The notes under the pieces were generated by a model. That model made no database searches. It saw only the letters and a list, made by a program, of their open reading frames with translations, and was not told the origin of the DNA. A stretch of 35,838 bases of DNA from Frankiaceae bacterium. GTDB taxonomy: Bacteria; Actinomycetota; Actinomycetes; JAFAQI01. The stretch covers positions 1-35,838 of the forward strand of contig JAVEEG010000061.1 in NCBI GenBank assembly GCA_030840585.1, read 5' to 3'. Made by a program: the position numbers and the translations under genes. Below are positions 8,646 through 34,868 of the stretch, in pieces. The stretch's first letter is position 1. Each line of letters begins with the position of its first letter.

Positions 8646-8678
8646 GTGTGCGACACTTGCACACGCAACACGCACGAC

Positions 8679-8782
8679 CTCATCAAGAGGGGCAGAGGGA
8701 CCGGCCCGTCGAAGCCCCGGCAACCATCCTCGTGACTGGTGCCAACTCCGGCCCGCAGGCAACCGCATGCGGGAAAGATGAG
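8679..8782 (+). promoter_or_regulatory. SAM riboswitch (S-box / SAM-I-like)
   Basis: P1 ctcatc (8679-8684) pairs with gatgag (8777-8782); core ctcatcaagaggggcagagggaccggcccg.cgaagccccggcaacc...ggtgccaactcc. Confidence 0.92.
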
Positions 8783-8802
8783 CGAGGAAAGGCATTTTCG
8801 CC

Positions 8803-10835: not shown

Positions 10836-10850
10836 GGGTGTCGTCTCCGA

Positions 10851-11013
10851 CGCCTGCCGGGTTAGCTGTCGGGTTCGGGCGGAAGATTGGCCCGGCCACG
10901 CAATGCGTGGCTTCACCCCAAGGAGCACCAGCGGCGCTCCGGTGTTGTTGGTTCCCCGGTCCCGTCCCAGGGTCGTGGCGCGCGCTGCCGGGACGGGCTC
11001 GGCGAGGCAGGCG
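10851..11013 (-). promoter_or_regulatory. ydaO/yuaA-type (c-di-AMP) riboswitch
   Basis: Minus strand reads ...accggggaaccaacaac...ttggggtgaagccacgcattgcgtggccgggc...cgcccgaacccgacagctaacccggcaggcg; P1 cgcctgcc/ggcaggcg. Confidence 0.88.
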
Positions 11014-22374: not shown

Positions 22375-22615
22375 CGCGGGGCTCCTGGATGTGCGCGGGG
22401 ACAGGACGGTGACTGTAGAGACATCGCCCGATTTGTCCAGTCCGCGTGCGAGCCGTCCTCGTTGTGGCAGCGCGTGACCGACTTCGCGCTACCTCTCGGA
22501 CGCGGCGATGCCCTGATCGCCGCAACGTCGGATGATCGTGATCTCCTGATACCTAGAGCCGGTGCTTCGCGGCGATCGGTGGGCACGAACGGGCGACGAT
22601 GAACGGGGGTTATCG

Positions 22616-23590
22616 ATGAGCAGGCGCGATCGCACGTGGGGCTACTGGACCGAGCAGAAGCTGGGCATGCTGGCCGAGTACCTACCCGCGTTCACGACGG
22701 CTTCGCAGCGAGCCAGGACGACTCTGTATCTGGACCTATTCGCGGGTGATGTCGCCAACACGAGCCGGGTCACGGGTCAGGAGATCGACGGCTCGCCGAG
22801 GGTCGCGCTCAACGCGACTCCGCCGCTCTCGGTAGTTCGCCTCTTCGAACTGCCGGGGCAGGCCGAGCGGCTGGAAGCTCAATTGCGTGCCGAGTACCCA
22901 GGTCGCGACCTCAGGGTCTACGCCGGGGACTGCAACCAGACGATCGACCAGGCGCTCGCTGATCTCACCCAGTACAACTGGGCGCCGACGTTCGCGCTAG
23001 TCGATCAATACGCGGCAGAGATCAGATGGGACACGCTCGCCAAGCTCGCGGCTTTCAAGCGCTTGGGCAAGCCGAAGGCAGAGCTCTGGCTGCTCTTCGC
23101 AGCCTCGATGCTGCCGCGGGGTCTCGGCGGTGACGACCTCGACGCGATCGCGGCGTTCGCCGACCGCATTACAGAGATGTACGGGACTCGAGACTGGCGG
23201 GAGGCGTACGAGGCGCGGGTCCGGGGGCTTCTCAGCGGACGCGGACTCCGGGACGAGTTGGCCAACCTGATGCGGTGGCGGATCGAGAACGATCTCGGTT
23301 ACCGCGTCACGCACGCGTTCGAGATGAAGAACACCCGAGGGATGCCGCTGTACTCGATGATCTTCGCGACGGACCACGACGCGGGCAACAAGATCATGCG
23401 TCACATCTATGGCCGGGCCGCCGAGCGGCAGCCGCAGATGCGCGCGGAGGCCGTCGCAAGGATTCAAGCCGATCGCGAGGCGCGCGAAGGGACGCTGGTG
23501 CTGTTCGATCCGCTCGTCCCACAAGTGAAGCCGATGGACCTCTACGTCCACGTCCCACCGAACGAGCCGTATCGGTTGCCGAAGGGGTAG
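22616..23590 (+). CDS. tcmP: Three-Cys-motif partner protein TcmP
   Basis: WGYWTEQKLGMLAEYLPAFT...TTLYLDLFAGD...GSPRVAL...; neighbour of a DUF5131/Gp37-Gp68 gene. Confidence 0.8.
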   Translation: MSRRDRTWGYWTEQKLGMLAEYLPAFTTASQRARTTLYLDLFAGDVANTSRVTGQEIDGSPRVALNATPPLSVVRLFELPGQAERLEAQLRAEYPGRDLRVYAGDCNQTIDQALADLTQYNWAPTFALVDQYAAEIRWDTLAKLAAFKRLGKPKAELWLLFAASMLPRGLGGDDLDAIAAFADRITEMYGTRDWREAYEARVRGLLSGRGLRDELANLMRWRIENDLGYRVTHAFEMKNTRGMPLYSMIFATDHDAGNKIMRHIYGRAAERQPQMRAEAVARIQADREAREGTLVLFDPLVPQVKPMDLYVHVPPNEPYRLPKG

Positions 23591-23593
23591 GGA

Positions 23594-24346
23594 TCAAACG
23601 GCGACGAGTGCTCGGTCCGGCATCTCGTCGTACGTCTGGCCATCCAGCGTGCGACCGCCGGCCTTCGGCGTGCGCCCGCCCCACTGCTTGAAGAAGAACG
23701 GCACATCGGCGGCGCGGCACGTGTCCCTGATGACCGTCACCCACGCAGGGTCCATCGGGCGATGTCTCGGGCCGGACTCGCCACCGGCGATGACCCACCC
23801 GATTCCCTTTAGGTCGAGGTCATCGAGCGGACCGAGCAGCGGCTCGCACGAGAGGAAGCGGACCGCAGCCGGAACGTGCCGGAGGTCGTCGATGCGGCTC
23901 ATCGCGGCGGCGTTCTCCACCGAGACACCGAGCCAGAGGTTCGACGGCCAGTCCAGCTGCTCCGCGACCAGGCGCACACGCCTAGACCGCTTCGTGAGCA
24001 GTTGGTACGTGTGATGCGGGGTGCTTGCCATGACGGCGAACACGTCGCGGACGAACGCGATCGGCACCTTGGCGTGGAACAGGTCGCTCATCGAGTTCAC
24101 GAACACGAGCCGCGGCTGGCGCCACGAGTACGGCACCGCGAGAGCGTCCGCGTGGGTCGTGAGGCCGAACCCCGGTCCGCTCGTCCGCGGGTCGCCGTCG
24201 TTCTGGTACTTCGCGGCACCCATCGCCTTGAGCCGCTTGGCGAGGGTCAGCGCGTAGCAGTTGTCACATCCGGCCGACACGCGGTCGCATCCGGTGGTCG
24301 GGTTCCAGGTCGCTTCGGTCCACTCGATGCTGCTGCCGTCCGCCAC
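23594..24346 (-). CDS. DUF5131 (phage Gp37/Gp68) family three-Cys-motif protein
   Basis: SIEWTEATWNPTTGCDRVSAGCDNCYA; VFVNSMSDLFH; PHHTYQLLTKRSRR; NLWLGVSVEN; WVIAGGESGP. Confidence 0.88.
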   Translation of the reverse strand: MADGSSIEWTEATWNPTTGCDRVSAGCDNCYALTLAKRLKAMGAAKYQNDGDPRTSGPGFGLTTHADALAVPYSWRQPRLVFVNSMSDLFHAKVPIAFVRDVFAVMASTPHHTYQLLTKRSRRVRLVAEQLDWPSNLWLGVSVENAAAMSRIDDLRHVPAAVRFLSCEPLLGPLDDLDLKGIGWVIAGGESGPRHRPMDPAWVTVIRDTCRAADVPFFFKQWGGRTPKAGGRTLDGQTYDEMPDRALVAV

Positions 24347-30722: not shown

Positions 30723-30942
30723 ACGGGGCGTTCTGTGGTGTCACCCGTTGGCAGCGCTGTCTGTCGCGACGGTTAGACGGGTCGCCGCGCGTCGTGGGCA
30801 TGACGGGGGCATGGCCGTACGACGCGTCAGGCGGACCATCCGCCACTCGGGCGAGGGGTTCAACCTGCTCGCCGACGTGAACGCCGTCATCGCTACGGGC
30901 GGTGGCTCCGCCTCCGCCCGCGACCGAACGAGAGGTGTGCAG

Positions 30943-31164
30943 ATGGCCGAGAACCAGACCAGGGAAGAGCTCGACACCGAGCTGACCGAGGAAGAGCTCG
31001 ACCAGCAGTCCGGTGAGGAGCTGCCCGACCGCGAGGCGATGTCGCTCATCAACGCGAACCTCGCCGCTCCGGTCAACGCCGCCGTCGCGCTCAACGTCCT
31101 CAGCGACGGGTCCACGGCGTACGCGAACGCGCAGCAGGACGCCACGATCATCCAGTCGACCTGA
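30943..31164 (+). CDS. Small acidic precursor-like peptide 1 (73 aa; alternative in-frame ATG at 30811 gives 117 aa)
   Basis: MAENQTREELDTELTEEELDQQSGEELPDREAMSLINANLAAPVNAAVALNVLSDGSTAYANAQQDATIIQST; paralogous to the next two ORFs. Confidence 0.85.
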   Translation: MAENQTREELDTELTEEELDQQSGEELPDREAMSLINANLAAPVNAAVALNVLSDGSTAYANAQQDATIIQST

Positions 31165-31175
31165 GGGAGCCTCAG

Positions 31176-31421
31176 ATGGCCAAGGACACGACGAAGGACC
31201 AGACCGACCAGTCGATCGACATCACCGACGAGGAGCTCGACCGGGAGACCGGCGAGGAGCTGCCCGACCGCGAGGCGATGTCGCTCGTCAACGCGAACCT
31301 GGCGATCCCGGTGAACGCCGCCGTCGCCGCGAACGTGCTGTCCGACGGCTCGATCGCGTACGCCGACGCGACGCAGGCGCCGAACATCGACCAGTCGATG
31401 CTGGGAGGCACCGGTGGCTGA
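31176..31421 (+). CDS. Small acidic precursor-like peptide 2 (81 aa)
   Basis: MAKDTTKDQTDQSIDITDEELDRETGEELPDREAMSLVNANLAIPVNAAVAANVLSDGSIAYADATQAPNIDQSMLGGTGG. Confidence 0.87.
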   Translation: MAKDTTKDQTDQSIDITDEELDRETGEELPDREAMSLVNANLAIPVNAAVAANVLSDGSIAYADATQAPNIDQSMLGGTGG

Positions 31422-31641
31422 CAAGACCACGGACGACGTGACGATCGAGCAGGTCGGCCTGACCGACGAGGACATCGACCGCGAGGCCGGCGAGGAGCTG
31501 CCGGACCGCGAGGCGATGTCGCTGCTCAACCTCAACGTCGCGGCCCCGATCAACGCGGCCGTCGCGGCGAACGTCCTCTCGGACAACTCGGTGGCGTACG
31601 CCAACGCCGAGCAGTCCGCGACGATCATCCAGTCGACCTAG
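31414..31641 (+). CDS. Small acidic precursor-like peptide 3 (75 aa)
   Basis: MADKTTDDVTIEQVGLTDEDIDREAGEELPDREAMSLLNLNVAAPINAAVAANVLSDNSVAYANAEQSATIIQST; overlaps peptide 2 by 8 bp. Confidence 0.87.
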   Translation: MADKTTDDVTIEQVGLTDEDIDREAGEELPDREAMSLLNLNVAAPINAAVAANVLSDNSVAYANAEQSATIIQST

Positions 31642-31648
31642 GTCGCAG

Positions 31649-33382
31649 ATGGTCCTCGATGCCCGCCCGGAGACGGCGGCGCGCCCTGCCGCGCCGCCGT
31701 CGTCGGTACGCCCTGACGGACGCCCCGAGCCAGCGGGCGCACGAGCGCCCCGGCTGGCCCGCGGCGTGGAGCTGCTCGGCGAGTACGAGGGCTCCGGCTA
31801 CAAGGAGGCGCCGTACCTCGCCCGCCGCGGCGACGGCCAGACGATCCAGCTGAGCCGGCTGCTGTACGCGGTCGCCGAGTCCTGCGACGGGCAGCGCTCG
31901 TACGACGACGTCGCCGCGGAGGCGAGCCGCCGCTTCGGCAAGCGGCTGTCGGCGCGCAACGCGCGGACCATCGTCGAGGACAAGCTGACCCCGCTCGGCG
32001 TCGTCGTGAACAACGACGGCTCCGAGCCGGTGCTGTCCAAGCCCGACTCGCTGCTCGCGCTGCGGCTGCGCAAGAGCGTGATCCCGCCGCGGCTGGTCCG
32101 CGCGCTGACGACGGTGTTCTACCCGCTGTTCCTCCCGCCGGTCGTCATCGCGGCGCTGGCCGGGCTCGGGGTGTTCGACTGGTGGCTGTTCGTCCACCAC
32201 GGTGTCGCGCAGGGCATCCGCGCCACCGTGCTGCACCCCGGACTGTTCCTCGTCATGTTCGTCGCGGTCGTCGTCTCGGCGTTCCTGCACGAGTGCGGCC
32301 ACGCGACGGGTCTGCGCTACGGCGGCGGCGAGCCGGGCACGATGGGCGCGGGCGTCTACCTGGCGTTCCCGGCGTTCTACACCGACGTCACCGACGCGTA
32401 CCGGCTCGGCAAGGGCGGCCGGCTGCGTACCGACCTCGGCGGCGTCTACTTCAACGCGCTGTTCATGCTGGGTACGGCCGGCATCTACGCGGTCACGCGG
32501 TTCGAGCCGCTGCTGTTCCTGATCCTGGTGCAGCACATCGAGATCGCGCACCAGTTCCTGCCGTTCCTGCGCCTCGACGGCTACTACATCGTCGCGGACG
32601 CGGTCGGCGTGCCCGACCTGTTCACCCGCATCGGGCCGATCCTGCGCAGCGCGCTGCCGGGCCGTAAGGGCGACCCGCGGGTGACCGCGCTGAAGCCGTG
32701 GGTGCGGCTGTTCGTCACGACCTGGGTGCTCGTCGTGGTGCCGTTCCTGATGTTCAACCTGACGCTGCTGCTCGTGCACCTCCCGCGGCTGCTGGCGACC
32801 GGCGCGCAGTCGATGCACAAGCAGTGGGGTACGACGACGGCCGCGTTCGGCGACGGCCGCTGGCTCGTCGGCACCGGCGGTGTCGTGCAGTCGCTCGCGC
32901 TGCTGCTGCCGTTCGCCGGCATCGTCTACACGCTGTTCCGGCTCGGCACCCGCATCGGCCGCCGGTCCTGGGCGTGGTCCGCGGACAGCCCGGTGAAGCG
33001 GGCCATCGTCGTCCTCGCCGGCGTCGGCATGCTCGCGCTGCTCGGCCGCGCCTGGCTGCCCGGCCGGCACTACACGCCGATCCGTCCTGGCGAGCGCGGC
33101 ACGCTGACCGACTACGTCGCGGCCTCGACGACGGTGATCGGGCACGACGACGTCGCGCCCGCGTTCGTGCCGTCCGGTGTCGGCCCGGCAGGCGCCGCGA
33201 ACCCCGCCGCCCCAGCCGGTACGTCGACCGACACGACGACCGGTACGACACCGGTCGACCCGTCGCTGTCGCCCACGCCCTCGCCGTCCGCGGCGACCGG
33301 CCTGACGAGCGAGTCGCCCGCGCCGAGCGAGTCGCCGACGCCGGAGGCGTCGCTGTCGCCGACCGCGACGGTGGCGCCATGA
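31649..33382 (+). CDS. Membrane M50-type (site-2-protease-like) zinc metalloprotease with N-terminal PqqD-like domain and P/S/T-rich tail
   Basis: PqqD-like LSRLLYAVAESCDGQRSYDDVAAEASRRFGKRLSARNARTIVEDKLTPLGVV; zinc motif FLHECGHATGLRYGGG; LDGYYIVADAVGVPDL; multiple TM segments. Confidence 0.85.
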   Translation: MVLDARPETAARPAAPPSSVRPDGRPEPAGARAPRLARGVELLGEYEGSGYKEAPYLARRGDGQTIQLSRLLYAVAESCDGQRSYDDVAAEASRRFGKRLSARNARTIVEDKLTPLGVVVNNDGSEPVLSKPDSLLALRLRKSVIPPRLVRALTTVFYPLFLPPVVIAALAGLGVFDWWLFVHHGVAQGIRATVLHPGLFLVMFVAVVVSAFLHECGHATGLRYGGGEPGTMGAGVYLAFPAFYTDVTDAYRLGKGGRLRTDLGGVYFNALFMLGTAGIYAVTRFEPLLFLILVQHIEIAHQFLPFLRLDGYYIVADAVGVPDLFTRIGPILRSALPGRKGDPRVTALKPWVRLFVTTWVLVVVPFLMFNLTLLLVHLPRLLATGAQSMHKQWGTTTAAFGDGRWLVGTGGVVQSLALLLPFAGIVYTLFRLGTRIGRRSWAWSADSPVKRAIVVLAGVGMLALLGRAWLPGRHYTPIRPGERGTLTDYVAASTTVIGHDDVAPAFVPSGVGPAGAANPAAPAGTSTDTTTGTTPVDPSLSPTPSPSAATGLTSESPAPSESPTPEASLSPTATVAP

Positions 33383-34092
33383 GGCGGCTGACCGCGCTGC
33401 TGCTCGTACCGCTCGCCGCGGTGGGCCTGGTCGGCGTCGCGACGCCCGCGTACGCCGGCGGCGGCGACACCACCGCGGTCGCGATCAACACCAAGGACGG
33501 GTTCGACCTGTTCCGGCTCGCGTTCCAGATCAAGCGGGCGACAGGCGACGTCGTCGACAACGGCAACGCCGCGGTCGCGTACGCCTCGTGCACCGAGTGC
33601 CAGACCATCGCGCTGTCGATCCAGATCGTGCTGATCTCCGGCTACGACTCGTCCACGGTCTCGCCGGAGAACGTCGCGATCGCCATCAACGAGAACTGCA
33701 CGTTGTGCGACACGCTGGCGTCGGCGTACCAGTTCGTGCTGACCGCCGAGGGCAACCTGCACTTCACCGCCGCGGGCAACCAGCGGCTCGCCGAGATCCG
33801 GCGGCAGCTGCTGGCGCTGCGTAAGAGCGGGCTCACCGCCGCCGAGATCCAGGCCAAGGTCGACGCGCTGATGACCGAGCTCGCCGACATCCTCTCGACC
33901 GAGCTGGTGCCGGCCGGCAACAGCGGTGCGAACGCCGCGCCGAGCGGGTCGCCGAGCGCGGCACCCGCGACCGCGTCGCCGACCGGCGCAACGAGCGACG
34001 CGCCGACCGCGCAGCCGCTCGACACGTCCTCGCCGTCCGAGAGCCCGAGCGACTCGCCGTCGACCGACCCGTCCGCTACGGCGTCGCCGTGA
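33379..34092 (+). CDS. Secreted protein with two CxxC motifs and Ser/Thr/Pro-rich tail
   Basis: Signal peptide MRRLTALLLVPLAAVGLVGVATPAYAGGG; CTEC and CTLC; 4-bp overlap with the M50 gene. Confidence 0.8.
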   Translation: MRRLTALLLVPLAAVGLVGVATPAYAGGGDTTAVAINTKDGFDLFRLAFQIKRATGDVVDNGNAAVAYASCTECQTIALSIQIVLISGYDSSTVSPENVAIAINENCTLCDTLASAYQFVLTAEGNLHFTAAGNQRLAEIRRQLLALRKSGLTAAEIQAKVDALMTELADILSTELVPAGNSGANAAPSGSPSAAPATASPTGATSDAPTAQPLDTSSPSESPSDSPSTDPSATASP

Positions 34093-34868
34093 GGCGCGCG
34101 CTCTGCGCGCTCTGCGCGGTGCTGGCGCTGGTCGCGTGCGGCTCGTCGTCCGGGTCGCCGGCCGCGAAAGCGCTGCGGGACACGGCAAAGCGGCTCGACG
34201 ACGTACGCAGCGCGACGATGGACCTGAAGATGACCGCGTCGTCGCCGTCGGCGAAGGACGGCGTTGGGTTCTCGCTGAGCGGGCCGTTCGCGCTGCCGGA
34301 CAAGCAGGGGCTGCCGGTCGCCGACATGAAGGTGACCGAGCTGCGCGGGTCGGCGACGTCGACGGTGTCGTTCGTGTCGACGGGGCAGGCGGCGTACGTC
34401 GTCCGCGGCAGTCGCGTCACCGCGCTGCCGGCCACGTCGGTCGGCGTCGGCGGCAAGGGCGGCGGGCTCGGCACGCTGCGGATCGACTCCTGGCTGCGCT
34501 CGCCGAGTCTCGCGGCGGGCGAGACGGTCGACGGTGTCGAGACCGACCACATCAGCGCGGGGCTCGACGTGGCGACGGCGTTCGACGACCTCGGCCGGCT
34601 CGGCGAGAAGCTCGGCGTCGCGACGCTGGCCGGGCTGCGGCCGCTCGACGCCGAGGCGAAGGCGCGGCTGGCGAAGTCGGCGGCGAGCTCCCACATCGAG
34701 GTGTGGAGCGGGCGCAAGGACCACCTGCTGCGCAAGCTGGTGCTGACGGTGACGCTGACCGCGGACGTGCCGCCGTCGCTGCGCTCGCTGGTGCCGGTGA
34801 CGCTGGCGCTGTCGATGTCGCTCGCCGACGTCAACCAGCCGGTGCACGTCTCGCCGCCGCAGACGTAG
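34089..34868 (+). CDS. LppX/LprG-like lipoprotein
   Basis: Lipobox LVACGSSSG; AKRLDDVRSATMDLKMTASSPS...; GTGA overlap with the upstream gene. Confidence 0.75.
   Translation: MRRALCALCAVLALVACGSSSGSPAAKALRDTAKRLDDVRSATMDLKMTASSPSAKDGVGFSLSGPFALPDKQGLPVADMKVTELRGSATSTVSFVSTGQAAYVVRGSRVTALPATSVGVGGKGGGLGTLRIDSWLRSPSLAAGETVDGVETDHISAGLDVATAFDDLGRLGEKLGVATLAGLRPLDAEAKARLAKSAASSHIEVWSGRKDHLLRKLVLTVTLTADVPPSLRSLVPVTLALSMSLADVNQPVHVSPPQT

Follow-up and report, generated by a model that had tools for sequence, protein, structure and literature searches.

Daptide gene clusters encode several tandem precursors with a leader and a peptidase, MpaP, that carries a RiPP recognition element (RRE; RiPP, ribosomally synthesized and post-translationally modified peptide) (PMC10036551), and in the epipeptide systems the protease EpeP is thought to cleave and export the epipeptide (PMC10885120). 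Here we describe an arrangement that resembles both of them, found in a 35,838-nucleotide stretch of DNA (hereafter the window; contig JAVEEG010000061.1, our G000:C202) from the 3.56 Mb assembly of a Frankiaceae bacterium, where tightly packed open reading frames (ORFs) encode three small acidic precursors, a predicted RRE-M50 membrane protease, a secreted protein with two C-x-x-C pairs (the CxxC protein) and a lipoprotein. To our knowledge, nearly all RRE-type recognition elements described so far belong to pathways that make modified small peptides. A second point of comparison is given by curli, in which a major repeat protein and a related partner (CsgA and CsgB) are found. We propose, at a confidence about midway between doubt and acceptance, that the operon encodes a self-contained system in which a leader guides the maturation and export of a repetitive polypeptide rich in beta-strands, and that this polypeptide assembles outside the cell with the CxxC protein as its partner.

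Recurrence and architecture of the gene set

A scan of GTDB, with one genome per species, recovered at least 561 stretches that encode relatives of the protease, and the best 80 of them were analysed. Precursors are present in 76 of these 80 loci and a CxxC domain in 75, and where one of them is lacking the protease mostly lies at a contig end; the co-occurrence of peptide and M50 genes, which the initial annotation of the window had named as a check on its own proposal, was thus confirmed. Among 297 sampled genomes of the class, 24 carry the precursor, 31 the CxxC protein and 23 both (Fisher p = 1.5e-26), and in 20 genomes the two lie on one contig, at most 3.1 kb apart. The source genome itself holds a second set (locus L028 on contig G000:C358), made up of three further peptides and an M50 gene, with the CxxC gene in divergent orientation. 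Because of this second set and of the co-occurrence across the 297 genomes, the arrangement in the window is not due to chance. The carriers belong to Actinomycetota (Mycolicibacterium, Arthrobacter, Nocardioides, Streptomyces and others) and to Chloroflexota metagenome-assembled genomes (MAGs).

The loci fall into several architectures. Type A, the one of the window, has one to four short peptides, the M50 gene and a separate CxxC protein. In type B, which accounts for 54 of the 80 loci, the short peptides are replaced by a single long precursor of ~210-490 residues that carries the core motif in two modules and lies directly upstream of an M50-CxxC fusion; the culturable strain Arthrobacter oryzae DSM 25586 has one locus of this type (L081). 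Type C has one or two peptides with LLPxREALGK-like leaders and was seen in five genomes of one large-genome genus and on a plasmid of Streptomyces sp. NBC_00557. The protease of type D is fused to a MinD/ParA ATPase, and its CxxC protein has three C-x-x-C repeats. In type E no CxxC protein was recognised, and LPERTTL-type leaders precede products rich in SPxSNN or GGNGGDGG. In a quick tree of the proteases, with long outgroup branches, types B, C and D each occupy one side of a branch and all stand apart from the true daptide proteases; the nearest named-genome row to the window protease is that of the Frankiaceae MAG L045.

Leader and core of the precursors

In the subtypes seen, a conserved LPx[RK]E-like motif closes the acidic leader, which is retained across them while the product varies, becoming longer, of the SPxSNN type or of the GGNGGDGG type. 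Within the window, the three peptides have exactly the same GEELPDREAMSL block, and the C-terminal pattern A-x-P-[VI]-N-A-A-V-A-x-N-V-L-S-D-x-S-x-A-Y-A-x-A-x-Q-x(3)-I-x-Q-S fits each of the three exactly, both as initially annotated. Across 72 distinct short peptides, chosen by the looser pattern LPx[RK], LP[DE]R is invariant in the leader, while N, A, P, N, A, A, N, S, A, A, A, Q and Q are near-invariant in the core (outline N.A.P.N.A.A.N..S..S..A.A.Q). These residues stand largely at every second position, which is the spacing of extended beta-strands, and the core is nearly the same in Actinomycetota and in the Chloroflexota MAGs. Of the division into leader and core made in the initial annotation, the acidic leader with a conserved motif is upheld; the core is not a small, variable bioactive peptide, since it is near-invariant and reaches ~210-490 residues in most relatives.

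No transmembrane or signal segment was found in the precursors (KD19 at most 1.47), and so a dedicated export route would be needed. The precursors of the window and of type B have no cysteine. Two of the three window peptides end in Ser-Thr and the third in Gly-Gly, with other residues at this place in the relatives. Sequence and model together predict a ribosomal precursor with a leader and a recognition element, as is expected of a RiPP.

The main rival explanation is that the product is a RiPP-like bioactive peptide (a bacteriocin or signal), that the RRE-M50 protein removes its leader as in daptides and epipeptides, that the core is active and that the CxxC protein and the lipoprotein provide immunity or reception by imitating the peptide. 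It agrees with the relationship of the protease to the daptide and epipeptide proteases and with short peptides in sets of one to four, like the daptide precursors (PMC10036551). The near-invariance of the core over two phyla and the predominance of proteins of 210-490 residues argue against it, and we consider it unlikely.

The RRE-M50 protease

The window protease matches the NCBIfam daptide protease profile NF041824 (daptide_HExxH) with 96 bits (E 2e-27; cut-off 300 bits) and the epipeptide protease profile NF058609 with 38 bits (cut-off 225 bits), and by sequence it is distantly related to MpaP, the protease of the daptides. The profile of the N-terminal domain, when aligned by hhalign to that of PqqD domains from other genomes, scored 29.4, against 10.4 +/- 2.2 in 200 column shuffles with a maximum of 17.6. 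An AlphaFold2 model of a related RRE-M50-CxxC fusion from Actinokineospora (L116; mean predicted local distance difference test, pLDDT, 81) shows in residues 14-86 three strands followed by three helices, the order of an RRE, with block pLDDT of 87-98. The PqqD-like N-terminus suggested initially is thus upheld by the profile score and by the predicted beta-beta-beta-alpha-alpha-alpha topology, and the domain is, on profile and model, a PqqD/RRE-like one.

The motifs and the model display what is expected of an M50 zinc metalloprotease, that is HExxH, a distal Asp and multiple membrane helices. The H, E and D of the predicted zinc site are invariant in 72 aligned relatives and the second H is present in 71 of them, and HExGH...DGY occurs in 95 of 98 ORFs. 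The Pfam M50 family search did not reach the window protein.

The CxxC protein shares the core motif

Four cysteines are invariant in a 29-row alignment of the CxxC domain, which has 13 invariant columns overall. Its second repeat aligns with the peptide core (P.N.A.A.N..[SC]..[SC]...A.A.Q), so that S-x-x-S in the peptide corresponds to C-x-x-C in the CxxC protein. The core profile scored 30.2 against the CxxC profile (maximum of 17.3 in 300 shuffles), and repeat 2 alone scored 23.4 against the core (shuffle maximum 16.7); repeats 1 and 2 scored 28.8 against each other, compared with 18.5. These sequence similarities suggest that the product and its CxxC partner have a common ancestry or a shared assembly interface. 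As the core is near-invariant, lengthened in relatives and shares this motif, the CxxC protein appears to be a product-like partner and not an accessory, and its fusion to the M50 protein in most relatives supports a joint function.

The cysteines also admit another explanation, an exported system for handling metals or redox whose functional unit would be the CxxC protein, with the Asn/Ala peptides as its scaffold or cargo. The two invariant C-x-x-C pairs, and the three pairs of type D loci, are in line with it, yet the precursors of the window and of type B are free of cysteine and the shared motif has Ser at these positions, and we regard this explanation as improbable.

Lipoprotein and genomic neighbourhood

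Ten other loci, each of the short-peptide type, also have the lipoprotein; it follows the CxxC gene directly in L046 and L057, and its copies in L045 and L136 are near-identical. Its carriers include distant Acidimicrobiaceae and Thermoleophilaceae MAGs; we therefore dropped the idea that it is a syntenic bystander and treat it as an optional member of the system.

Around 16 loci, no Pfam family was found in more than 3 of 100 neighbouring proteins (among the 25 commonest of 117 families), and therefore neither a RiPP tailoring enzyme nor another partner is a constant neighbour. The initial annotation had seen no lanthionine, YcaO, radical-SAM or lasso enzyme at the locus, which agrees with this result. 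No tailoring enzyme that would modify the core was recognised in these neighbourhoods, which speaks further against a bioactive peptide, although an enzyme encoded elsewhere may act on the core.

A gene for an anti-sigma-type HATPase lies divergently upstream of the window operon. It could point to a regulatory circuit, in which the M50 protein would cut the small acidic proteins by regulated intramembrane proteolysis and release a signal or an anti-sigma-like regulator, and M50 site-2 proteases are common in such circuits. Yet among 17 relatives examined only L030 has a HATPase homologue, the precursors have no segment in the membrane, and the paired secreted CxxC protein and the repeat-type long precursors do not fit, so that we find this explanation very unlikely too.

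Proposed mechanism

The preferred assembly reading can be laid out in four steps. In the cytosol, the RRE/PqqD-like N-terminus of the protease would bind the acidic leader through the LPx[RK]E-bearing segment. The M50 site (HExxH and DG) would then cut at or just after the leader, as in its family, and the product would cross the membrane, perhaps through the protease itself. Outside the cell, the Ala/Asn/Gln polypeptide may pack as extended beta-strands with fixed residues at every second position and assemble into a surface fibre or matrix. The secreted CxxC protein, in a role analogous to that of CsgB beside CsgA, may be a co-subunit of this structure, nucleate it or anchor it; most relatives have it fused to the protease, of which it would form the exterior domain. 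The lipoprotein would be an optional accessory. Judging from the sequences, the process most probably begins with recognition of the leader by the RRE domain and a cut by the M50 site, and we expect these steps with good confidence. Assembly of the product with the CxxC partner into a surface fibre or matrix is the outcome we prefer, tentatively, at slightly less than an even chance.

Several results weigh against this scheme. The model of a long precursor, almost all strand after a short leader helix, has low confidence (pLDDT 59), and its sole match in the PDB, the amyloid FapC, was not significant (E 1.9) and was not used as evidence. Neither curlin nor any other amyloid family appears among the Pfam matches of the long precursors up to E 10, and repeat 1 of the CxxC protein alone did not match the core. 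M50 enzymes usually cut membrane-spanning segments, which are absent from these precursors. A direct search of the genome with PF05402 (PqqD) did not detect the window protease and Foldseek with the whole protease model gave no significant RRE match, for which reason the RRE assignment draws on the profile comparison, the topology and the homology to the daptide RRE-peptidase.

Organization of the window operon

All six ORFs of the initial annotation are present on the plus strand between 30943 and 34868, and its quoted start, 30811, lies upstream of the ATG of pep1. The three overlapping junctions that it reported are real, with 8 nucleotides between pep2 and pep3 and 4 nucleotides each between M50 and CxxC and between CxxC and the lipoprotein.

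Table 1. Coordinates of the operon and of related loci; positions refer to the window unless a locus is named.
Feature	Position	Strand	Remarks
pep1 precursor	30943-31164	+	73 residues; ATG start; GEELPDREAMSL leader motif 31012-31047; homologous precursors in 76 of 80 related loci
pep2 precursor	31176-31421	+	81 residues; leader motif 31251-31286
pep3 precursor	31414-31641	+	75 residues; GTG start; leader motif 31489-31524
RRE-M50 intramembrane metalloprotease (predicted)	31649-33382	+	577 residues; NF041824 match below cut-off; conserved across system loci
PqqD/RRE-like domain of protease (predicted)	31769-31987	+	~residues 41-113; profile-profile match and topology of L116 model
HECGH zinc motif	32288-32302	+	protease residues 214-218
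DGY motif	32576-32584	+	in protease; D310 is candidate third ligand
Two-CxxC protein, secreted	33379-34092	+	237 residues; Sec signal; Ser/Thr/Pro tail; CTEC 33589-33600, CTLC 33697-33708
Lipoprotein	34089-34868	+	259 residues; weak similarity to SCO4651 family
Type D loci	L043 6611-8899; L133 6837-9209; L134 6486-8891		
Type E loci	L117 6369-6878; L197-L199; L201		

A chance or non-coding artefact was ruled out by the conservation across genomes and by synonymous and nonsynonymous differences in the core (pS 0.51 against pN 0.16), a value that is supportive only, as the pairs had been pre-selected for core identity. Pairwise ratios of nonsynonymous to synonymous rates (dN/dS) against L030 could be used only for pep1, pep2 and M50; those for pep3 and CxxC were implausible, probably because of wrong frames.

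Elsewhere in the window, the stretch 181-1359 holds an ORF whose secreted product has Cys repeats and, at its C-terminus, an LPFTG-like sorting signal; the Rfam c-di-GMP-II-GAG aptamer (181-300, 53 bits) lies inside or before this ORF. Rfam also identified an S-adenosylmethionine (SAM) riboswitch at 8677-8784, preceding a threonine synthase-like ORF, and a c-di-AMP (ydaO) riboswitch at 10844-10980 on the minus strand. At 22562-24346, two neighbours were recognised by eye, a TcmP-like (three-Cys-motif partner) protein and an oppositely oriented phage Gp37/Gp68 (DUF5131)-like protein.

Comparison with known systems

The searches of Pfam, NCBIfam and PADLOC returned no family for the precursors or the CxxC protein, with nothing in Pfam above cut-off; a BasB match was dismissed at 15 bits against 230. 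Sequence searches of the PDB gave nothing convincing, and a literature search for the motifs, in open-licence papers, found no paper describing the system. The gene cluster is widespread in soil actinobacteria and apparently unnamed, and its loci may already be picked up, without a name, by mining tools that look for RREs.

The system shares with daptides an RRE fused to an M50-type intramembrane protease and tandem precursors with a leader motif. It differs in the protease, far below the 300-bit cut-off and on a separate branch of the tree, in the lack of the decarboxylase, aminotransferase and methyltransferase (MpaB/C/D/M) from the window operon, in the leader (LPx[RK]E here, ELExMEAP in daptides) and in the core, which ends in an invariant Thr in daptides only. 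Membership in the daptide class was rejected on the MpaP-type cut-off, the MpaB/C/D/M enzymes and the C-terminal Thr. A true daptide protease (406 bits) and the present system occur together in one genome, G014 (G014:C10 and G014:C11), which shows that the two are distinct.

The likeness to the epipeptide proteins (YydH/LiaK/EpeP) is confined to the M50 core; the match is far under the cut-off of their profile and the window operon has no radical-SAM epimerase. With SpoIVFB, an M50/site-2 protease, the window protease has in common the HExxH and DG motifs and a multi-helix membrane core, with a weak structural match (prob 0.47, E 1.5), and differs by the extra RRE-like domain and, in most relatives, by the fused CxxC domain.

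Curli and FapC resemble the system in the way they would work, through alternating conserved residues with Gln/Asn and a repeat protein beside a related partner. Leader-type precursors with no Sec signal, the Gram-positive host and the non-significant FapC match set it apart, and a curlin relationship was rejected because no curlin profile matched. As the defining features of daptides and of curli were tested and not found, we file the system under neither. Read most boldly, it would be a new secretion system, in which an RRE fused to an intramembrane protease directs the export of proteins of ~70-490 residues, and these, together with a homologous C-x-x-C partner, polymerise on actinobacterial cells into a surface structure similar to functional amyloids; this we put forward as possible and rather doubtful.

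In this system the RRE logic is joined to conserved repetitive proteins of up to ~490 residues and to a secreted partner that shares their motif, and no tailoring enzyme recurs, so that RRE-based mining may mislabel some non-antibiotic systems as natural-product clusters. If a surface structure is indeed built, it would represent a new route of export and assembly in Gram-positive bacteria, testable in culturable strains. These comparisons suggest that a leader processing of the antibiotic style is used here to build something at the cell surface.

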